DNA of 33,292 bases from an uncultured Caryophanales bacterium (GCA_945228905.1 CALYOH010000005.1:1-33292), one strand, 5' to 3'; shown: positions 5,788 through 29,903, counted from the stretch's first letter. The notes: generated from the letters alone by a model not told the origin. Program-made: numbers and translations.

Positions 5788-8700
5788 ATGAGAAAAGAAC
5801 AAAAAAAGAATACAAAGGCATTTACTTTAGTCGAGTTATTAGCCGTAATAGTAATTCTAGGACTTTTAGCAGTTGTTGGAATAACTGCAGTAAGTAGATA
5901 TATAGAAAGAGCTAAAAAAGAAAGCAATTCAGAAACAAAAGATGTATTACTATTAGCTTCAAAACAATACTTACAAGATAATAAAGATCTTGCACCTAAA
6001 GCAATTGGAGAACATAAGATTATTGCTGCTAAAGAATTAAAGAAGGCTAAATATTTAGTTAGTGATTTAAAAAATTCTAATGGCGAATCTTGTATGAATG
6101 AGAGTTTTGTAAGAGTTTATAAATCAGAAGGAACAGACTATTCATATACAGCATATTTATACTGTGGAGATGAAAAAGCACCTTCAGAGATAGAAGCAAT
6201 TTCTCCAGTAGTAACAAAATTTGAATTTTCAAAACCAGACGATGTTTCAGCAGCAAGTTTCACAATGGTAACAGAGGGATCTGAAGATAAAAATAACCCT
6301 CTTGAAATAGATAGTTATAGTTTCACAATTTCTACTTTGGTAGATAGTGAAACAGGATATCAAGAAGTTTATAATAGTGGTTCAGTTCCAGGAAATCATA
6401 ATACAAAAATTACTAAATCATATAAATTAGTTGACTATATTGATTTTGTTTCAGTAACATCAGTAAGAGTAAGTATTACGGTAATTAATGAACAAGGCGG
6501 TATAACATCAATTACAAAACAAACTGGAGTAGATAGCGAAAGAGACTTTAGTGATACAGTATCACCTAAATGTTCAAAGATAGATAATGAACCAAAACAA
6601 AATGAATGGATAAATAAAGAAACAATAGATAATATTGGTGGTGGTTATAGAAAGATAACTGCTACTTGTAATGATGGGCAAGGAAGTGGATGCTTAAGAG
6701 CAACATTTACAAAATCATTCCCTAATAATGATATCTATAGAGGAGAAAAACATTATTACTGGGGTGCAGAATATGCATATGTAGAAGTTAAAGATAATGC
6801 AGGAAACTCATCATTAGTAAATGCAGAAACTAAAGCAACATGTCGTGTATTAGTAAATGTAGACATCTTATCACCAAGAGTAGAAGTTACAGCAGTAACA
6901 AATGATAATATTATTAAAACAGTATCTGCTGGAGGAGCAGATGAAAACTATAATGAATATGATGATACAGCTTCTATAACAGCCAACTCATATAATTTAA
7001 GTAAATCACCAAGAGATACTGATTGGATTTGGTTTAATGAAGAATATAAAGATGGAGTAACTTATAAAATAAAAGTAGGAGATAATCTTCATTTATATAG
7101 ATATACATGGGAAACAAATTCAACAGGAGTATCAAAAGAAGAATATAGTAAAAATAAAAGTATAATTAATGATTTAAAAGTAGATAACACAGATGGAAAA
7201 GAAGAATATTTCCCAGAACAAGATTTATCTACTAATGACAATGGACTACAAAGTTCTGAATTTAGCGTTCAACTAAAAGGAGAAGGAGTCAGACATGGTA
7301 GATTAACGGTATATGATAGAGCTGGTAATAAGACAGTAATTAATATATATGCTAATATTGATAGAACTAGACCAGATGTTCCTACAAGTATAGTTGCTAA
7401 GACTTTAGAAAAGAATAATATAAATGCAGAAGAAGTAGCAGATTATACTCCAGAAAAATGGACAAATAAATATGTTAAAACTTATATAAACAAAAATTAT
7501 CAAAAAGATAGTATATCTGGATTTGATAAAGTTGAGTTTGAAGTAAGAAGTCATGGAATTGGAGCAGAAGAAAATGCTACAAAGAAAGGTGAAACTGAAT
7601 TTGTATTTGATGAACACTATCAAGGAAAGAACAAAGTAAGATTTAGAGTATGTGATAATGCAAATAACTGTTCTAACTATAGTGAAAATATAGAAGTCTG
7701 GTTAGATACGATTGCACCAACATGTACAGTTTCACAAAATGTAAACAAAAAAGTTGAAAATGTAGATGGAGTACTTTCAGATGCAGGATGGGCTGGAAAA
7801 GGTGAAACAATAACAGTAACAGGAAAATGTGCTGATCAAAATGCTGGTAAAACTGGTAGTGGTTGTGAAGTAGATAAAATAGAAAAAGAATATACAGATC
7901 CTATTAATACAACAACTGCAGGACCAGCAGGAGATAATAAAGGTGGAGTTTTAAAGGATATTGCTGGAAATCAAGTAACATGTGATGCTAAACAAGAAGT
8001 TAAAATTGATCATAGTGAACCATCTTGTACAGTAACAATTAAATACGAAGTAACTGACAATAGTAAGGGTGATGGTAAATTATCATCAACTGGTTGGTTA
8101 AGTAAAGGAGAACAAGCTGTTGTAACTGCTAAATGTAGTGAACTTCAAGGTACAGTAAGTTCTGGGTGCGTTACACAACCCTTCTCAAAAACATATAATA
8201 CACAAATTGAAATTTCTAATGCTGGAGCAGTTGATGCAGGAAAAGGTGGCTTTGTAAAAGATGCCGCAGATAATGTAACAGAATGTGCAGCAAATAAAGT
8301 AGTAAAAATAGATCAAACAGATCCAGAGTGTAAACTAGAAATTACATATGAAGGTGGAGACAAGAAAACACATGATGGAACTGAAAATGGATGGCTAAGT
8401 AAAGGAGAAAGTGCAAGAGTAACAGCAACGTGTGAAGATACGGGTGGTAGTAAATGCGCTACTCAGCCATTTAGTAAATTATATAAAACAGATAAAATGA
8501 TGAATACTTCAACAGCTGGAGCTGGTGGAGATGGAGTATCTAAATCAGTATCTGATACAGCAGGTAATACTAAAATATGTGGTTATAAAACAGTTAAGAT
8601 TGATGCAGTTGCACCAACATGTTATACAGATGGATGTAATAATACAACTTGGACCAACCAAAACAGAACATATAAATATGGATGCCAAGATACAAACGGA

Positions 8701-9399
8701 AGTGGATGTGTAACAGCATTAGCGTCTGGTACTGTAGATACTACAAAGAAATCATTATCACTATCATATGATATAGTTGATGTTGCAGGAAATAAAACTA
8801 GTTGTTCACCAACTTGTAATGTACTAGTTGATAAGAATATCCCAACAGGTACATGTACAGTTTCAGGTAATAAGATAACATTAAATTCTAAAAATGATGA
8901 TCATAGTGGTGTGTCTGCAGTACATTACATGTCTAGCACATCAAATGCAAAACAATCAATATCATCAAAGGCATGGTCTACTTCAACATCTTTAGGAACA
9001 AGTTGTGGTACAAAATATTATGGACATATAAAAGTTATAGATAAAGCAGGAAATTCAGCAGCATATGTATGTACTGGATCATATACAACAGGAGCTTGCT
9101 GTGGTGCTTCTAATCCATGGGGATGTACATGGAAGACAGCATGTCGTAACGGAAGAACATTTATCTATACAAGTGCTGCTAAGACAACTTATGCAGGAAC
9201 AGTATATCACAAGAAAGATTCCGCATGTAGTGATAGATTATATCTAATAGAGGGTAGTGGAAGTAAAAAATTATATATTCATTCTCCATGTGGCAACGTT
9301 TCATGGTATCCAGCCGCAAACAAACCACATGCATATATTTATTCAAACTGTATTGGAGGACAAAATAGTGTCTGCCCATATGCTAATTGCCCAGGATAG
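5788..9399 (+). CDS. Giant type IV prepilin-like protein with Cys-rich Ig-like repeats (1203 aa)
   Basis: N-terminal class III signal KNTKA|FTLVELLAVIVILGLLAVVGITAVSRYIE. Repeated units of the form GW.(S/A)KGE..TVTA.C.D..GSGC...F...Y...AG...G...D.AGN...C....VKID, then a Cys-rich C-terminal domain. Confidence 0.85.
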   Translation: MRKEQKKNTKAFTLVELLAVIVILGLLAVVGITAVSRYIERAKKESNSETKDVLLLASKQYLQDNKDLAPKAIGEHKIIAAKELKKAKYLVSDLKNSNGESCMNESFVRVYKSEGTDYSYTAYLYCGDEKAPSEIEAISPVVTKFEFSKPDDVSAASFTMVTEGSEDKNNPLEIDSYSFTISTLVDSETGYQEVYNSGSVPGNHNTKITKSYKLVDYIDFVSVTSVRVSITVINEQGGITSITKQTGVDSERDFSDTVSPKCSKIDNEPKQNEWINKETIDNIGGGYRKITATCNDGQGSGCLRATFTKSFPNNDIYRGEKHYYWGAEYAYVEVKDNAGNSSLVNAETKATCRVLVNVDILSPRVEVTAVTNDNIIKTVSAGGADENYNEYDDTASITANSYNLSKSPRDTDWIWFNEEYKDGVTYKIKVGDNLHLYRYTWETNSTGVSKEEYSKNKSIINDLKVDNTDGKEEYFPEQDLSTNDNGLQSSEFSVQLKGEGVRHGRLTVYDRAGNKTVINIYANIDRTRPDVPTSIVAKTLEKNNINAEEVADYTPEKWTNKYVKTYINKNYQKDSISGFDKVEFEVRSHGIGAEENATKKGETEFVFDEHYQGKNKVRFRVCDNANNCSNYSENIEVWLDTIAPTCTVSQNVNKKVENVDGVLSDAGWAGKGETITVTGKCADQNAGKTGSGCEVDKIEKEYTDPINTTTAGPAGDNKGGVLKDIAGNQVTCDAKQEVKIDHSEPSCTVTIKYEVTDNSKGDGKLSSTGWLSKGEQAVVTAKCSELQGTVSSGCVTQPFSKTYNTQIEISNAGAVDAGKGGFVKDAADNVTECAANKVVKIDQTDPECKLEITYEGGDKKTHDGTENGWLSKGESARVTATCEDTGGSKCATQPFSKLYKTDKMMNTSTAGAGGDGVSKSVSDTAGNTKICGYKTVKIDAVAPTCYTDGCNNTTWTNQNRTYKYGCQDTNGSGCVTALASGTVDTTKKSLSLSYDIVDVAGNKTSCSPTCNVLVDKNIPTGTCTVSGNKITLNSKNDDHSGVSAVHYMSSTSNAKQSISSKAWSTSTSLGTSCGTKYYGHIKVIDKAGNSAAYVCTGSYTTGACCGASNPWGCTWKTACRNGRTFIYTSAAKTTYAGTVYHKKDSACSDRLYLIEGSGSKKLYIHSPCGNVSWYPAANKPHAYIYSNCIGGQNSVCPYANCPG
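8602..9399 (+). repeat. Copy 1 of a 798-bp direct repeat (3' ends of the tandem prepilin-like genes)
   Basis: Begins GATGCAGTTGCACCAACATGTTATACAGA and ends CCCAGGATAG. The same length and ends occur at 12474-13271, with long identical blocks. Confidence 0.9.
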
Positions 9400-9405
9400 A
9401 ATAAA

Positions 9406-9437
9406 AAAAAACTAAATTTTCATAAATTTAGTTTTTT
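9406..9437 (+). terminator. Rho-independent terminator between the two prepilin-like genes
   Basis: AAAAACTAAATTT-TCAT-AAATTTAGTTTTT hairpin with A-rich and T-rich flanks. Confidence 0.8.
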
Positions 9438-9440
9438 ATA

Positions 9441-9469
9441 TTGTCTAAAAATAAAAATTATTTTATAAT
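9441..9469 (+). promoter_or_regulatory. Putative sigma-A promoter (TTGTCT-N17-TATAAT)
   Basis: -35 at 9441-9446 and -10 at 9464-9469, upstream of the second prepilin-like gene. Confidence 0.5.
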
Positions 9470-9491
9470 TAATACTATAGTAGGTGATAAT

Positions 9492-12400
9492 ATGAAAAAT
9501 AGAAAAGGATTCTCGTTGGTAGAGTTACTAGCAGTTATTGCAATTCTAGGAATCTTAGCTGTTGCAGGAATAGTTGGAGTAACTAGAATCATAGAAAAAT
9601 CTAAGGCAGAAAAGAATGCATCTGAAGTAAAAACTGCTACTTTTGCTGCTAAGAGCTATCTACAAGCAAATAAAGAAATAGCGCCAAAATCAATTGGAGA
9701 ATCAACAACTTTAACACTACAAGATTTAAAGGATACAAAATATTTAACTGAAGATCTTGTTAATGCTAAAGGTGAAAACTGTATGGAGCATTCATACGTT
9801 GAAATTATTAAGACAGGAAAAAATTCGTATGATTATGAGCCCCATATTTATTGTGGTTCAGAAATACCAGAAGATGAAGGGACAAAAGACCCTCCAGTAT
9901 TAAAAAAAGGTATTATATTCTCTGACGCAAATGATGTAAGTGTAGCAAGCTTCTCATTCACACTTTTAGGTTCAGCTAATAATAGTGATGAAGAAATTGC
10001 TTCATACACATATGTTATTTCTACAAAACTAAATGGTCAAACAGATTACCAAGAAGTTTATAATTCAGGAGTAATTGCAGGAAACGATCAAAAAGAAATC
10101 AACATAAATGAAAAGATTAAGAAATATGTAGATTTGACTGGTACAACTTCAGTAAGAATAACTGTTATTGCAAGAAATGAATCAGGTGGAAAGCTTGAAG
10201 AGTCAGCAGTTACTGGAACAGGTAAATACTCAGACTTTAAAGATACAGTACCTCCATATTGTGAGGCTGATAGTGCAAATAATCTTCAATATACTCAAGC
10301 AGAAGTAGGAGATTGGTTTAATTATGAAGACTACAAGAAAGCAGGAAGAGGTAAGAGTATCCAAGTAAAATGTCTAGATGGTGACGGAAGTGGATGTTTA
10401 AGAAATATATTCACACAAACATGGCCAAACAATCAAGTAGTAGACGAAAATGGAACAAAACCATATTTATATGGGGCTAAATATGCATGGATTTATATAA
10501 AAGATAATTCTGGAAACAGTGGAAAAGTAGTAAATACACTTCCTAGTGACTGGAATGATAATGGGGATCCAAATCATAGAAATGATGGTAATGATTATAG
10601 ATGTTTAGTAAGAGTTAATGTTGATATCTTACCTCCAGAGGTAACTTTAAATGTAAAAGCAACAGAAAATGGAAAAGTATTAGCAACAAAGACTGCTGGT
10701 GGTCTAGACTCTAATGGAAATAGAAGAAAAGATGGTACAGAAGACGCTAATGAAGAAAGCATTATGATTGAATTTGATTCATATAGCGATCTTGCTGATG
10801 CAGTGGATGGACATAAATGGTTTAATTCAACAAATTCACCAACAGGACCAATAATTGAATTTACAGCAAAAGATAATATTCAATTAGATAGATGGGTTTG
10901 GGAAACAAATGTTGGAGGAGTTCCATATAAAACAACATATTCAGGAAATGAAACTAAAGTTTCAACTGCAGGAGATGACAGTGAATTAGCTAGTTTCAAT
11001 TCTCCTAATAATTTGTTTTTTGATACAGCACCTTATAGTAAAACAGTAACTTTCGCAACAGATGGAGTAAGATTTGGTAAATTAACTGTTTATGACAAAG
11101 CAGGAAATAAAACAGTTATTAATGTTAAAGCATATGTAGATAAAACTGCTCCAAATATTAAAAATACAACGATAGCAACAAAATATTTAATTGAAAATAA
11201 AGTAGCAGCTGAAATTAGTGACGATGATTATCAAGAACAGACTTGGACAAATAAATATGTAATGGCATATATTAAAAAAGCAGATAAAGATAAAGAAACT
11301 GTGTCAGGATTTAGTTCAGCTAAATACAATGTATATAACGAAGAAGAAAAAATAATTATGACTGAAAGTAATGACACCAATAGAAAATCTTATTATAAAG
11401 GACCAGAATATAATGAAGAAGGATTAAGTGCATTTGTATTTACAAACACATTTGAAGGAAAAAATAAAATTGAATTTGCATTGTGTGATGTAGCAGGAAA
11501 CTGCTCAAACTACTTAGAGAAAAAAGCAGTGGTATGGCTAGATACAACTCCACCAGATTGTACAATGTCACAAAAAGTAAATAAACAAGCTGATTCAGCA
11601 GACGGAGCATTATCTCCTTACGGTTGGGCTGGGTTAAATGAAACTATAACTGTAACAGCAACATGTAGTGATCCAAGTAAAAATGGTATTTCAACAAGTA
11701 AATGTAAAGTTGAAACATTGAGTCACGAATATAAAGATGATATAAATACTACAAAAGCAGGAGCAGCTGGTAACGGTAATGGTGGAACTTTCTATGACGT
11801 TGCAGGAAATTCTAAAAAATGTCCAGCAACTGAAACAGTAAAAATAGACCATAAAGAACCATCTTGTACAACTAGCATTTCATATGCTGGAGGAGACGGA
11901 AAAACAAATGATGGATGGTTAATGGCTACTGAGACTGCAACAGTAACTGCAACATGTAAAGATGAAGCAGTTGATGGAGTAGTATCTCAATGTGTTAAAA
12001 ACTCATTCTCACATACTTATACAACTGAGATTGAAACTACAAAAGCAGGAGCAGTTGCAGATAAAAATGATCAAAATATCTCAGGTGGTTCTGTAACAGA
12101 CCAAGCAGACAATGTTACTCAATGTCCAGCAGATAAAACGGTTAAAATAGATAAAACAAAACCAAAATGTGAAATGACAACAAAATATTATAATAGTAAT
12201 AAAGTAGAAATTTCAAAATCTGTAATCCAAAATAATCAAAAAGGTTGGTTAAAGAAAGGTGAATATGCAACAGTAACTGGAAAATGTAGCGATACAGGTG
12301 GAAGTAAATGTAAAACTACAAATAATGTTAATATTAAATCCTATAATTATAAAACAACAACAACATTAAATATTAATGATGCAGGACCAAATGGCCGAGG

Positions 12401-13271
12401 AGTTAAGGTTACATTCACGGATGTAGCAGGTAATGAGTCAGATCCTTGTCCAACAAACATTAATATTAAAATAGATGCAGTTGCACCAACATGTTATACA
12501 GAAGGATGTGATAATACAACTTGGAGCAACCAAAATAGAACATATAAATATGGTTGCCAAGATACAAACGGAAGTGGATGTGCAACAGCATTAGCATCTG
12601 GTACTGTAGAAACTACTAAGAATTCATTACCGCTATCATATGATATAGTTGATGTTGCAGGAAATAAAACTAGTTGTTCAAAAACTTGTAATGTACTAGT
12701 TGATAAGATTTTACCAACAGGTACATGTACAGTTAAAGGTAATAAGATAACTTTAGATTCTAAAAGTGATGATCATAGTGGTGTGTCTGCAGTACATTAC
12801 ATGTCTAAGATAAAAAAAGAAACACCAGGAATAGATTCAAATGCATGGTCTACTTCAACATCTTTGGGAACAAGTTGTGGTAAAACATATTATGGATATA
12901 TAAAAGTTATAGATAAAGCAGGAAATTCACAAGTAGTTGGCTGTGGTGGATCATATACAACAGGAGCTTGCTGTAGTGCTTCTAATCCATGGGGATGTAC
13001 ATGGAAGACAGCATGTCGTAACGGAAGAACATTTATCTATACAAGTTCTGCTAAGACAACTTATGCAGGAACAGTATATCACCAGAAAGGTTCATCTTGT
13101 AGTGATAGATTATATCTAATAGAGAAAAGTGGAAGTAAAAAATTATATATTCATTCTCCATGTAACAAGATTTCATGGTATTCAGCAGCAAAAAAACCAT
13201 ATGCATATATTTATTCAAACTGTATTGGAGGACAAAACAGTGTCTGCCCATATGCTAATTGCCCAGGATAG
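9492..13271 (+). CDS. Giant type IV prepilin-like protein with Cys-rich Ig-like repeats, paralog of the preceding gene (1259 aa)
   Basis: NRKG|FSLVELLAVIAILGILAVAGIVGVTRIIE class III signal. Same architecture and near-identical C-terminus as 5788-9399. The start was moved to ATG 9492, preceded by AGGTGAT. Confidence 0.87.
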   Translation: MKNRKGFSLVELLAVIAILGILAVAGIVGVTRIIEKSKAEKNASEVKTATFAAKSYLQANKEIAPKSIGESTTLTLQDLKDTKYLTEDLVNAKGENCMEHSYVEIIKTGKNSYDYEPHIYCGSEIPEDEGTKDPPVLKKGIIFSDANDVSVASFSFTLLGSANNSDEEIASYTYVISTKLNGQTDYQEVYNSGVIAGNDQKEININEKIKKYVDLTGTTSVRITVIARNESGGKLEESAVTGTGKYSDFKDTVPPYCEADSANNLQYTQAEVGDWFNYEDYKKAGRGKSIQVKCLDGDGSGCLRNIFTQTWPNNQVVDENGTKPYLYGAKYAWIYIKDNSGNSGKVVNTLPSDWNDNGDPNHRNDGNDYRCLVRVNVDILPPEVTLNVKATENGKVLATKTAGGLDSNGNRRKDGTEDANEESIMIEFDSYSDLADAVDGHKWFNSTNSPTGPIIEFTAKDNIQLDRWVWETNVGGVPYKTTYSGNETKVSTAGDDSELASFNSPNNLFFDTAPYSKTVTFATDGVRFGKLTVYDKAGNKTVINVKAYVDKTAPNIKNTTIATKYLIENKVAAEISDDDYQEQTWTNKYVMAYIKKADKDKETVSGFSSAKYNVYNEEEKIIMTESNDTNRKSYYKGPEYNEEGLSAFVFTNTFEGKNKIEFALCDVAGNCSNYLEKKAVVWLDTTPPDCTMSQKVNKQADSADGALSPYGWAGLNETITVTATCSDPSKNGISTSKCKVETLSHEYKDDINTTKAGAAGNGNGGTFYDVAGNSKKCPATETVKIDHKEPSCTTSISYAGGDGKTNDGWLMATETATVTATCKDEAVDGVVSQCVKNSFSHTYTTEIETTKAGAVADKNDQNISGGSVTDQADNVTQCPADKTVKIDKTKPKCEMTTKYYNSNKVEISKSVIQNNQKGWLKKGEYATVTGKCSDTGGSKCKTTNNVNIKSYNYKTTTTLNINDAGPNGRGVKVTFTDVAGNESDPCPTNINIKIDAVAPTCYTEGCDNTTWSNQNRTYKYGCQDTNGSGCATALASGTVETTKNSLPLSYDIVDVAGNKTSCSKTCNVLVDKILPTGTCTVKGNKITLDSKSDDHSGVSAVHYMSKIKKETPGIDSNAWSTSTSLGTSCGKTYYGYIKVIDKAGNSQVVGCGGSYTTGACCSASNPWGCTWKTACRNGRTFIYTSSAKTTYAGTVYHQKGSSCSDRLYLIEKSGSKKLYIHSPCNKISWYSAAKKPYAYIYSNCIGGQNSVCPYANCPG
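12474..13271 (+). repeat. Copy 2 of the 798-bp direct repeat
   Basis: Constant offset of 3872 bp from copy 1. The shared block ...CTTCTAATCCATGGGGATGTACATGGAAGACAGCATGTCGTAACGGAAGAACATTTATCTATACAAGT... is identical. Confidence 0.9.
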
Positions 13272-13311: not shown

Positions 13312-14049
13312 ATGAAAAAGAATAAAAATAAAAAGAAAATAATTGTAACAATAATTATCTTGATTCTATTAATCGCTATAGGCTTTTTTGGATTTACAAA
13401 ATTTAGTTCAAAAGAAGAAAATATTGAAAATACAAATTTCTGGGATTATGATAATACTAATAAAATTAAAATTTGTAAAAAGAACTCGACAGATGAATGT
13501 CAAAGACCTATATATGACATATATAATTTAATAAAAATCAAATATGATAATAAAGTATTAAATAAAGAGTTAGATAGAGTTAATAAAGAAACAATGGAAT
13601 TATTTGAAGAAGCAAAAAAATCAGATATCTCAGATAGTACTTGTGATAGTGTAAGAAATAAATATAATTATAGACTTTCTAATGAAATAAGATATGCTAA
13701 TTTTGAAAACGATTCTGTTATATCAATAGCAGTTCATAAAGTTCAAGCAGATCTTTGTACAGAAGAAGTTAAGACTTTAAGTTATGAAGTATTTAATTAT
13801 GATAAAGAAGAAAAAAGATTACTTACACAAGAAGAAATAAAAGAAATAGAACAAGTAAAAGATGAAGAAATTGCTAATACTATTAAAGATGCAACAGAAA
13901 GATTATCAAAAGATGAAAAAAAGGAATATGAAATACAAACTGATTATAGTAAAGTATTATTATTCTATAGTGAAGGTGGTGGCTTAGTATTAGCATTTGA
14001 AATTCCTGGAACTAACTTTTATTTAGATAATGAATTAGAAAGAATTTAA
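13312..14049 (+). CDS. Hypothetical membrane-anchored protein (possible DUF3298/DUF4163-like extracytoplasmic domain)
   Basis: N-terminal Lys-rich segment plus TM (KKIIVTIIILILLIAIGFFGF). C-terminal SYEVFNYDKEEKRLLTQEEI resembles the DUF3298 pattern; the family assignment is tentative. Confidence 0.5.
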   Translation: MKKNKNKKKIIVTIIILILLIAIGFFGFTKFSSKEENIENTNFWDYDNTNKIKICKKNSTDECQRPIYDIYNLIKIKYDNKVLNKELDRVNKETMELFEEAKKSDISDSTCDSVRNKYNYRLSNEIRYANFENDSVISIAVHKVQADLCTEEVKTLSYEVFNYDKEEKRLLTQEEIKEIEQVKDEEIANTIKDATERLSKDEKKEYEIQTDYSKVLLFYSEGGGLVLAFEIPGTNFYLDNELERI

Positions 14050-14073
14050 AGAGAACATTAAGTTCTCTTTTTT
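14048..14073 (+). terminator. Rho-independent terminator
   Basis: GAGAAC-ATTAA-GTTCTC followed by T6. Confidence 0.8.
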
Positions 14074-14098: not shown

Positions 14099-16402
14099 AT
14101 GGAAAAGATAATTGTATGTCCTAACGAACAAAAACTAAATATTTTAAAAGAATTAAATAATAATAAAGAACTACATAGTATTAAATTTATGACAAAACAA
14201 GAGTTTATTAGAAACTATTTTTTTTCATATAATGATGATGCTATATATTACTTAATGAATAAATATAATTTTAATTTAGATGTATCTAAAGTGTATCTAA
14301 GTAATTTATATGTAATAGATATTAATAAAGACTATAATAATAAAAAACTATTATTTTTAAGAGATTTAAAGAAAGAACTTATTGATAATAACTTATTAAT
14401 ATTTAATAAATTATTTAAAGATTATATTAAAGATAAAACAATAGAAGTATTCAATTATTATGATTTAGATAAGTATGAAGAAATTGCTCTTAATTATAAA
14501 TTAAATATAAATAAAGTAAATATAAATAAAAAAGTATATGAATTTAATTCTATAGAAGAAGAAATTAATTATATATGTATAAAGATAATAGAATTAATAA
14601 ATAGTGGAGTAGATATAAATAAAATATATTTAACTAATGTATCTAATGATTATCTATATATTATTAAACAACTATTTAAATATTATAATATTCCAATTAA
14701 TATTAATTTTAATGATTCCATATATGGTACTAAAATAGTACAAGATTATTTAAAAACAAAAGAATTAGATTTAGATGATTCAAATAAAAATAATATTAAT
14801 AAAAAGATTATTAATATATTAGAAGACTTATCTAATATAGATAGTAATGATCCTATATATGATAAATTATTAATAGATAAGTTAAAGAATACTAAAATAG
14901 ATTCAATAAAATTAAATAATGCAGTTAATATAAAAAATCTATATGATTATGAATTTAAAGAAGATGAACACGTATTCTTAATAGGATTTAATCAAGATAT
15001 ATTACCAGTAATTAGAAAAGATATAGATTATATTACAGATAATATTAAAGATGAAGTAGATATGTATAAAACAGATTACTTAAATAATAGAGAAAAAAAT
15101 ATAGTTAGTTACTTACTAAGTAAAATTAATAATCTATATTTAAGTTATAAATTAAATTCTCCATTTAGTAGATTTTATAAATCTCCTCTTATTAATGAAA
15201 TAGGTCTAGAAGTAGATCATATATTAGATGATAAATATTTATATTCTAATATATATAATAAAATAAGGTTAGGTGAAATGTTAGATTACTATTACTTATA
15301 TGGAGAAAAGAATAATAAATTAAAAGAATTAAATACACATTATGATATAAATTATAAATCCTATAATAATAACTATACAGGAATTAATAATGATACATAC
15401 CTAAAGAATTTACCATATCCATTAAGATTGTCTTATACATCAATAAATAGTTATAATGAATGTAATTTTAAATACTATATAAACTATGTATTAAAACTAA
15501 ATATATATGAAGATACTTTTGCAGCATACATAGGATCTTTATATCACCATTTATTAGCTATTTATATGACTCCTGGCTTTGATTTTAATACAGAGTACAC
15601 TAAATATATTAGTGAAAAGAATTTGTCTTTAAAAGAGAAAGTATTACTAGTAAGAATAAGAAAAGATTTAGAAGATTTTATAGATATATTAAAGAAACAA
15701 CAATTATTAACTGGATATGATAATTTCTATTTTGAAAAGAAATTACTTGTTCCTATATCTAATGATATATCAGTAGAATTTGTAGGGTATATTGATAAAA
15801 TTATGTATTATAAAAAGATGGATGATACATATTATTCAATAATAGATTATAAAACAGGTACTATAGATACTAATATAGAACCAATGAAATATGGTCTTCA
15901 TATGCAATTACCATCTTATTTATATTTAATTAACTATTCAAAAGAAATATCTAATCCAATATTTACAGGTATATATTATCAAAATATATTACATGATTAT
16001 CCAAACTGGTCTAAAAACTTAGAAAAAGATATTAAAGATAAATATTTATTAAAAGGATATTCTACTGATAATATAGAAGTACTAGAAAGATTTGATTCAA
16101 CATATCAAGATAGTGAACTAATAAAAAGTATGAAATATAATGAAGATAAAGGTTTCTATAGTTATACAAAACTAATAAATGATGATACTATGTATCAATT
16201 AATTAGATATAGTAAAAATATAATAGAAAAAAATTCTAAAGATATATTAGATTCTAAATTTGATATAAATCCTAAAGTATATAATAATGAAAATATATCA
16301 TGTAAATACTGTCAGTATAAAGATTTATGTTTTATGAAACCAGATAATATTATTTACTTAGATAAAGTAGAAAACTTAGATTTCTTAGGGGGTGAAGAAT
16401 AA
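14099..16402 (+). CDS. addB: AddB-like PD-(D/E)XK nuclease subunit (767 aa)
   Basis: Directly upstream of and overlapping addA. LSYTSINSYNECNFKYYINYVL, VGYIDKIMYY...SIIDYKTG nuclease motif, and C-terminal CKYCQYKDLCF Fe-S-type cysteines. Confidence 0.8.
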   Translation: MEKIIVCPNEQKLNILKELNNNKELHSIKFMTKQEFIRNYFFSYNDDAIYYLMNKYNFNLDVSKVYLSNLYVIDINKDYNNKKLLFLRDLKKELIDNNLLIFNKLFKDYIKDKTIEVFNYYDLDKYEEIALNYKLNINKVNINKKVYEFNSIEEEINYICIKIIELINSGVDINKIYLTNVSNDYLYIIKQLFKYYNIPININFNDSIYGTKIVQDYLKTKELDLDDSNKNNINKKIINILEDLSNIDSNDPIYDKLLIDKLKNTKIDSIKLNNAVNIKNLYDYEFKEDEHVFLIGFNQDILPVIRKDIDYITDNIKDEVDMYKTDYLNNREKNIVSYLLSKINNLYLSYKLNSPFSRFYKSPLINEIGLEVDHILDDKYLYSNIYNKIRLGEMLDYYYLYGEKNNKLKELNTHYDINYKSYNNNYTGINNDTYLKNLPYPLRLSYTSINSYNECNFKYYINYVLKLNIYEDTFAAYIGSLYHHLLAIYMTPGFDFNTEYTKYISEKNLSLKEKVLLVRIRKDLEDFIDILKKQQLLTGYDNFYFEKKLLVPISNDISVEFVGYIDKIMYYKKMDDTYYSIIDYKTGTIDTNIEPMKYGLHMQLPSYLYLINYSKEISNPIFTGIYYQNILHDYPNWSKNLEKDIKDKYLLKGYSTDNIEVLERFDSTYQDSELIKSMKYNEDKGFYSYTKLINDDTMYQLIRYSKNIIEKNSKDILDSKFDINPKVYNNENISCKYCQYKDLCFMKPDNIIYLDKVENLDFLGGEE

Positions 16403-28982: not shown

Positions 28983-29903
28983 ATGAAAAAGATATTTATA
29001 ATTGTTTTATTATTTATATGTATATTTTCATATAATGTAGTATTTGCTGAAGATACAATTAAAATAAGTAGTATTGATATAGAAGATATTTCAGATAATA
29101 CGCTAATTAATAAAGAACCACAAGTAAATGGATTATCATTTTCATCAGATGCAACTTTCTTTGAAGTAAATGACTTTATCAAATACAAAATAACAGTAAA
29201 TAACCCAACTCCAGAAGATTATATATTAAGTAATGATACAAAGTTTTCAGATAATAACTATATAAAATATAAATATGAAGTAGATGGAGATAGTATTATT
29301 AAAGCTAATTCTACTAAAACAATGTTTATTACAGTATCATATAATAAAGAAATAGAAGAATCTAATTATGAATATAAAAATAATATGGCTTTAAATCTAA
29401 CTAATTTAAATAATAATCCTAAGACAGGATCATCAAATAAAGTATTAACTATTGTAAGTATACTAATGATTGTATTTGGAATGTATATGGTAATGAAATA
29501 TGGAAAAAAAGAAAATCTAATAGTATTAATTATCTGTTTATCTATATTACCTTTAGGAGTATTTGCAATAGAAACATTAAAAATAAATATAGAATCAAAT
29601 ATAGTAATAGAAAAAGAAGCTCCTACATTTAAAATATGTGCACATAATATAAATCCTGAATCATGTACTACTTATAGATATAAAGAAGGTATGATTTGGA
29701 ATAAATGGTTAACAAGTAAATATAACTATAATCAACTTACATTTGAAAATGATGGTAGCATTTGTAATTATGGTTCAAGATACTTAATGCACTATGTAGA
29801 AAATGATGATTCATTTATAGAGCAATCAGTTAAATATACAGATTTGGTAGAATCAAAAACATACTATACTGGAATTGGAGTTTACTGTCCAGAGAGCAAT
29901 TAA
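28983..29903 (+). CDS. Secreted/membrane protein with internal NPKTG motif and two adjacent TM segments
   Basis: Signal peptide MKKIFIIVLLFICIFSYNVVFA. Beta-rich domain, then NPKTGSSNKVLTIVSILMIVFGMYMVMKYGKKENLIVLIICLSILPLGVFA, then a Cys-containing C-terminal domain. Confidence 0.7.
   Translation: MKKIFIIVLLFICIFSYNVVFAEDTIKISSIDIEDISDNTLINKEPQVNGLSFSSDATFFEVNDFIKYKITVNNPTPEDYILSNDTKFSDNNYIKYKYEVDGDSIIKANSTKTMFITVSYNKEIEESNYEYKNNMALNLTNLNNNPKTGSSNKVLTIVSILMIVFGMYMVMKYGKKENLIVLIICLSILPLGVFAIETLKINIESNIVIEKEAPTFKICAHNINPESCTTYRYKEGMIWNKWLTSKYNYNQLTFENDGSICNYGSRYLMHYVENDDSFIEQSVKYTDLVESKTYYTGIGVYCPESN

Follow-up and report, generated by a model that had tools for sequence, protein, structure and literature searches.

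What would a bacterium with a genome of 1.56 Mb do with two adjacent prepilin-like proteins of 1203 and 1259 amino acids (aa), and are they pilins at all? This question is raised by a window of 33,292 nucleotides from an uncultured Caryophanales bacterium (GCA_945228905.1, CALYOH010000005.1:1-33292), which is the whole stretch of DNA that was analysed and is contig 5 of a metagenome-assembled genome (MAG) of 153 contigs with a contamination of 8.6%; the genomes compared with it are mostly, if not all, MAGs, fragmented and partly contaminated. Both genes lie on the plus strand. The first open reading frame (ORF1, 5788..9399) was defined by ORF calling, Pfam and NCBIfam, and the second (ORF2, 9492..13271) likely starts at the ATG at 9492, its mechanical reading frame opening upstream at the TTG at 9441. 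A first-pass annotation had placed the pair at 5788-13271, had given the same two lengths and had described the proteins as giant prepilins, and in coordinates and description alike it was accurate. By analogy with described modular pilins, we propose that both proteins belong to the modular minor type IV pilins, though of giant size, and serve as adhesins, probably at the pilus tip, and we give this reading a probability of about 0.6.

The case for it begins at the N-termini. Both proteins carry the class III prepilin signal and the N-terminal methylation motif by which type IV pilins are recognised, as the first-pass annotation had claimed: N_methyl (PF07963) scores 24.1 bits in ORF1 (E 2.4e-5) and 31.6 bits in ORF2 (E 1e-7), with a curated cut-off of 21.2, and TIGR02532 scores 19.6 and 28.3 bits, respectively, with a cut-off of 16.3. 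Judged by sequence, the observation of two prepilin giants is correct and no chance effect. The leader of ORF1, MRKEQKKNTKA (5788..5820), ends with Ala at position -1, and that of ORF2, MKNRKG (9492..9509), with Gly, as in most homologs; the unusual Ala is found in ORF1, in its ortholog from the nearest named relative, Bacillales bacterium UBA3789 (now placed by NCBI in Caryophanales, class Bacilli), and in a 1131-aa gene of another genome (G013). A pilin module covering mature residues 1-116 follows each leader. In ORF1 (5821..6168) it comprises F1, E5, a long alpha-1, a short beta part and one Cys pair, as judged by alignment, a PDB profile over residues 1-56 and the model of its equivalent in ORF2; the latter (9510..9857) was delimited by alignment, PDB profile and model. 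No head among the 29 aligned across the genus departs from F1 or E5. A search with the head profile recovered solved type IV pilins within residues 1-56 only, with PilE1 of Streptococcus sanguinis (8pfb, E 3.9e-10) on top, and an AlphaFold2 (AF2) model of ORF2 residues 1-249, with a mean predicted local distance difference test score (pLDDT) of 73, predicts a continuous 51-residue helix from 3 to 53; both agree with the N-terminal alpha-1 of about 50 residues that is expected of a pilin. In the same model a short second helix and strands at 65-69, 96-101 and 109-114 come next, followed by a low-confidence linker (117-124) and a separate Ig-like sandwich. The invariant F1 and E5, the match to PilE1 and the predicted helix together favour a pilin anchor over the ordinary transmembrane (TM) anchor that the annotation had named as a refutation.

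The bodies of the two proteins are where they become modular. Big_3_2 Ig-like domains reach 25 and 27 bits in ORF1 and ORF2, above the gathering cut-off of 23.3, and with the separate Ig-like domain of the model they supply the extra non-pilus domain after the pilin module that marks a modular pilin. By model and fold search this first Ig-like domain lies at 6193..6561 in ORF1, after the linker, and at 9882..10256 in ORF2. Three tandem four-Cys Ig-like repeats of about 101 aa each are found further along ORF1 (residues 637-935, 7696..8592, pLDDT mostly 70-80) and three in ORF2 (11532..12491), and the number of copies per giant ranges from 0 to 9. A full-length AF2 model of ORF1 made from four sequences (mean pLDDT 44) is usable in the repeats alone, where it predicts tandem Ig-like domains whose fold matches the adhesin extenders GhpA, an RTX adhesin and SiiE; a PDB sequence search with the repeat gave nothing credible. 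The Cys-rich Ig-like repeats that had been noted earlier are therefore borne out by domain score, by repeat pattern and by a content of 38 Cys in each protein. Because each repeat has four Cys and the four proteins compared have 38, 38, 38 and 36, disulfide stabilisation of the stalk is plausible. Here the earlier proposal stands in part: the number and pattern of the Cys speak for it, and no clear thiol-disulfide oxidoreductase has come with them, since a genome search with PF13462, which did not extend to VKOR and other Dsb families, gave no match, and the sole extracytoplasmic candidate found, a lipoprotein with a thioredoxin-like CPWC motif (L071:1306-2007), falls below the Pfam cut-offs. 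The latter may be the disulfide enzyme for the Cys-rich giants.

A pilin needs a machine, and the annotation had rightly remarked that the window encodes no assembly ATPase, platform protein or prepilin peptidase; all machinery matches lie on other contigs of the genome, and none was found on the window contig. The genome search set beforehand as a test yielded a PilB-type ATPase on contig 26 (E 3.5e-115) and the platform protein PilC on contig 45, where the gene for the prepilin peptidase PilD comes immediately next. The set that goes with type IV pilins, an extension ATPase, a platform protein and a prepilin peptidase, is thus found in one genome, so that the giants cannot be dismissed for want of machinery. 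Among 39 genomes of the genus, 37 have a PilB-type ATPase, and typically one such ATPase comes with one of the TadA type; no third ATPase of the PilT type was seen in these 39 genomes, a possible third match in one of them being a split match. PilM gave nothing above cut-off in the genome of the window. The TadA-type ATPase belongs there to a separate Tad-like cluster on contig 13, with two TadB/C-like membrane proteins and a CpaB-like protein, which, judged by its ATPase, is present in most genomes of the genus. Adjoining pilB on contig 26 is a 628-aa prepilin (L022:2536-4422) with an ALK/LTK glycine-rich domain (PF12810, E 1.1e-33), which in its domain content is a further modular pilin; a minor pilin of 258 aa lies beside it.

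The minimal, Com-like appearance of this machine, together with an encoded ComEC and scores of the head against GspG and ComGE models, could also be taken to mean that the giants serve a type II-like secretion device, as its pseudopilins, or take part in DNA uptake as subunits of a Com pilus. We consider this very improbable. Those scores, like that for ComGC, fall far short of the equivalog cut-offs, the surroundings of PilB and of PilC showed no comG operon, and we know of no Com or GspG-type pilin with an Ig stalk of 1000 aa.

The giants are not an oddity of one genome. On the contig of UBA3789 the gene order is identical throughout the compared region, and the ratios of nonsynonymous to synonymous substitution (dN/dS) against the UBA3789 orthologs, 0.21 for ORF1 and 0.41 for ORF2, indicate that both genes are intact and both frames under purifying selection. 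The pair sits in a slot bordered on the left by a gene which we take to be rpmF, for ribosomal protein L32 (5510..5719, plus strand, 81-92% identical in the slots of other species), and on the right by an addB-like gene in conserved position, presumably addB itself (14099..16402, plus strand). This slot is recognisable in 11 species, our own and ten others, and is occupied by either a single prepilin or a pair, with lengths from 257 to 2125 aa. Pairs occur in UBA3789 (1204 and 1252 aa), G013 (1131 and 1399), G036 (830 and 1092) and G006 (849 and 854), and single prepilins in G007 (1042), G014 (893), G012 (1929) and G023 (2125); in G030 a prepilin of 1033 aa is followed by the end of the contig before addB, and the slot of G016 has a prepilin of 257 aa. 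In a tree of the heads, the sister of ORF1 and of ORF2 is in each case its UBA3789 ortholog (support 100/98 and 100/100), and the pairs of G036 and of G006 each group within their species, a sign of repeated duplication or homogenisation. Giants are also found outside the slot and occur in most of the genus. The genome of the window has two more, one of 942 aa and one of 1388, as well as a pilin of 239 aa consisting of the head and the first Ig domain alone, among about 13 prepilin boxes of which several lie within large genes. Two of its boxes are short open frames of 56 and 87 aa (contig 3 at 23646 and contig 36 at 11659), and the former is similar to the head of the giant of 942 aa and runs into stops, so that it is probably a decayed copy. 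A second, distinct family of prepilins of about 1320-1400 aa was seen as well (L026:4670-8836, L075:3547-7743, L084:10755-14948 and L091:1372-5337), with a single-TM partner of 162-165 aa directly downstream in three of these four. A phage origin was not supported: viral contigs and phages gave two short helix-only matches and otherwise no relatives.

Beyond the genus, prepilin boxes are present in 95 of 98 family genomes from nearly as many genera, with a maximum of 54 in one genome of 1.2 Mb, and the proliferation is family-wide. Three genomes of other genera (G222, G228 and G213) have 54, 39 and 33 boxes in about 1.0-1.2 Mb, many of them in long frames. It follows from such numbers, about 13 here and up to 54 in the family, that not all of these proteins can share one tip, and we have for this reason kept the alternative that the prepilin head is mainly a generic surface anchor, by which the giants would be held in the membrane through alpha-1 as fixed stalks that never or rarely polymerise. 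The family-wide spread of boxes into long frames, the excess of giants over a single tip and the failure to see a third, PilT-type ATPase in the genus agree with it. Yet E5, which serves filament packing and would be needless if the head only held the protein in the membrane, is the same in all 29 heads, PilB, PilC and PilD are all retained, and so is the leader, with Gly or Ala at -1. We regard a generic anchor as unlikely, though it deserves to be taken seriously.

The variation of the giants follows a clear plan: the head is conserved, and the length of the stalk and the end domain vary. ORF1 and ORF2 both end in a Cys-rich tail domain (103 aa in ORF1, 9088..9396; 12960..13268 in ORF2), which we call 'CPG', and their last residues are ...CPYANCPG; neither protein has the LPXTG motif and C-terminal TM segment of a sortase-anchored protein, and a PilY1 C-terminal beta-propeller gave no Pfam match in either. 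The CPG tail is present in only five of 196 related genomes, and other giants carry unrelated Cys-rich tails. An 829-aa giant prepilin on the minus strand of G015 contig 3 (L103, 5635-8124) has a tail with a thrombospondin type 1 (TSP1) domain (PF00090, 25.2 bits, cut-off 21.6). This tail may be a remote relative of the CPG tail, with which it aligns only weakly (hhalign probability 59, P 9e-5); hmmsearch did not find it. An SH3b-like nature of the CPG tail found no support, and the sub-threshold Pfam matches (Mucin_bdg in ORF1, Enas in the tail and DUF6520 in the gene downstream of ORF2) were not used.

How tails move can be seen within the pair itself. ORF1 and ORF2 share about 55-65% DNA identity over most of their length, with a proportion of synonymous differences (pS) of about 0.5; from 8597 in ORF1 and 12463 in ORF2 to the stops, identity is about 92% and pS 0.06-0.17. 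On the donor side (8597..9399) identity steps from 0.68 to 0.95, and on the recipient side (12463..13271) ORF2 resembles ORF1 and the ORF1 ortholog, not the ORF2 ortholog. Since this tract of ORF2 is 62-79% identical in aa to the UBA3789 ortholog of ORF1 and 40-47% identical to its own ortholog, the last 800 bp or so of ORF2 were copied from ORF1 after the species split. By this comparison the similar ends of the two genes are the product of recent overwriting by gene conversion, not of slow conservation.

Directly downstream of ORF2 lies a gene for a bitopic membrane protein of 245 aa (13312..14049, plus strand), with one N-terminal TM segment and four Cys invariant in its family. By a simple hydropathy rule applied to related loci, small single-TM genes directly follow 18 of 42 giants and 24 of 356 other genes (Fisher p 4e-9, which is optimistic as the loci are related). 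The family of the 13312 gene follows the CPG tail at all six loci where that tail occurs, once each in our genome, G003, G030 and G036 and twice in G007, where the second locus lies outside the slot; in G030 the tail was found first and the partner then located directly behind it, its frame cut by the contig end. The same family also follows the L103 giant, whose tail, as said, is only possibly related. A second partner family, of 162-171 aa, follows the prepilins of about 1390 aa and one further giant, and a third, of 305-322 aa, follows three other giants; partner families track tail type. No Pfam, NCBIfam or PDB match was obtained for the 13312 family, and a likeness to RsiV/DUF3298, suspected from the pattern, was supported by none of the three. 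From this linkage the likely unit is a cassette of a giant modular pilin and a tail-matched partner, and the 13312-14049 protein is most likely a dedicated partner of the end domain, for instance a factor for assembly or folding, or a co-receptor bound to it.

A polymorphic tail joined to a small membrane protein also calls to mind contact-dependent competition, in which the Cys-rich tail would be an effector on a pilin stalk and the downstream protein its immunity protein. Variable tails on conserved heads and repeats, a downstream gene that covaries with the tail family and is joined to it at a second locus too, and recombination concentrated on the tail are what one would expect of such a system; against this, profile searches matched no tail to a toxin family, the TSP1 tail looks adhesive, a majority of the giants lack such a partner in the position directly downstream, and ORF1 and ORF2 have a single partner in common. 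We judge a competition system to be improbable.

Returning to modular tip adhesins, the pilin anchor, the repeats, the machinery genes, the conservation of the slot, the turnover of tails, the gene conversion and the linkage of the partner are all established at the level of sequence, and a tip-presented adhesin fits published modular pilins. The first-pass annotation had the anchor, the stalk and the state of the machinery right and overlooked the partner gene, the gene conversion, the rpmF-addB slot and the genus-wide occurrence of giants. In the mechanism that we propose, Sec would insert the prepilins with the stalk outside and PilD would cut the leader; the PilB/PilC machine, apparently without a PilT retraction motor, would build the head into a filament, and the bulky stalk would confine the subunit to the tip, as has been argued for PilB and PilC of S. 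sanguinis (PMC8179133, PMC9934059). There the end domain could bind a surface, a host glycan or a neighbouring cell, and the 13312-14049 protein would act on it. Several points weigh against this reading. Entry of the giants into a filament is a prediction from their genes, ORF1 has Ala instead of Gly at -1, and about 13 prepilin boxes, several in large genes, are too many for one tip. The CPG tail matched no Pfam or PDB family and no ligand-binding family was identified for it; confidence in the full-length model is low (mean pLDDT 44); and a Foldseek search with the ORF2 head model was dominated by Ig-like folds with no pilin among the 50 best matches, so that the beta part of the pilin module is predicted only.

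As for the remaining features of the locus, an AT-rich hairpin with a T run between ORF1 and ORF2 (9410..9437, plus strand), recognised by eye, is a probable terminator; our terminator scan requires three G-C pairs and therefore did not call it. The scan did call a terminator-like hairpin after the partner gene (14048..14070, plus strand), which closes the cassette. Upstream of ORF2 a promoter-like TTGTCT-17-TATAAT (9441..9469, plus strand) is a consensus match only, of a kind no commoner than in shuffled sequence. Elsewhere in the window, 28983-29903 encodes a secreted protein of 306 aa in which a sortase-like NPKTG signal lies internally (TIGR01167, 16.2 bits, cut-off 15.9) and further sequence comes after the TM segment. 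A sortase-like protein is encoded on contig 61 (L028:1098-1880) and has two short prepilins nearby.

No paper on the giant prepilins of this lineage was found in the open-access literature, and the part with the best chance of novelty is the giant-plus-partner cassette. We tentatively suggest, as a possibility more than an expectation, that it is an uncharacterised two-gene cassette widespread in one small-genome lineage of Bacilli, with a pilin-anchored stalk, a swappable Cys-rich tail and a tail-matched bitopic partner (immunity protein, chaperone or co-receptor), in which tail exchange and gene conversion would generate diversity and a type IV machine, apparently devoid of a retraction motor, would carry out the display. 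With the giants, what a modular pilin bears grows from one grafted domain to a stalk of 1000-2000 aa, and they suggest that a whole family of uncultured Bacilli with genomes of about 1-2 Mb uses the pilin head as one of its chief ways to display large surface proteins. This raises the questions of how a minimal, apparently PilT-less machine accepts bulky subunits, whether several giants compete for one tip and what the partner does.

Among known systems, the giant Ig-repeat adhesins (the RTX adhesin, SiiE, MpAFP and GhpA) share with ORF1 and ORF2 a tandem Ig-like extender stalk and a variable end domain, as the fold matches indicate, and differ in having another anchor; they are mostly stabilised by Ca2+, whereas the repeats here are Cys-rich and sit on a pilin. 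The tip adhesins PilY1/PilC of diderms are likewise very large, thought to be displayed at the tip and composed of variable modules on a constant carrier (PMC8179133); PilY1, however, is no pilin, and in the giants, which gave no match to a PilY1 domain, it is the pilin that acts as carrier. The Com pilus (T4dP) of monoderms (PMC12153270) resembles our system in its minimal machine of ATPase, platform, peptidase and pilins, in that no PilT was found and in the presence of ComEC, but Com pilins are small, and here no comG operon was seen, the genes are scattered and the model scores fall below cut-off. Closest are the modular pilins. Raynaud et al. described more than 1200 of them in 264 architectures by InterPro, a distribution that is probably underestimated (PMC8179133), and on sequence features ORF1 and ORF2 fall within their definition. 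The modular pilins PilB (vWA) and PilC (lectin) of S. sanguinis mediate adhesion, and models place them at the tip (PMC8179133, PMC9934059); the giants have in common with them the class III leader and Glu5, a short pilin module, a linker, non-pilus domains and a monoderm host, and presumably also the probable tip position and adhesion. The S. sanguinis proteins are of about 50 kDa, and the giants, at 1203-1259 aa here and up to 2125 aa in the genus, are more than twice as large; they have many Ig-like Cys-rich repeats, exchangeable tails and a linked membrane-protein gene, occur several to a genome and are found without PilT. Their anatomy departs from that of known modular pilins in the apparent lack of a retraction motor, in scale, in the recombinational exchange of tails and in the partner that is linked to them.

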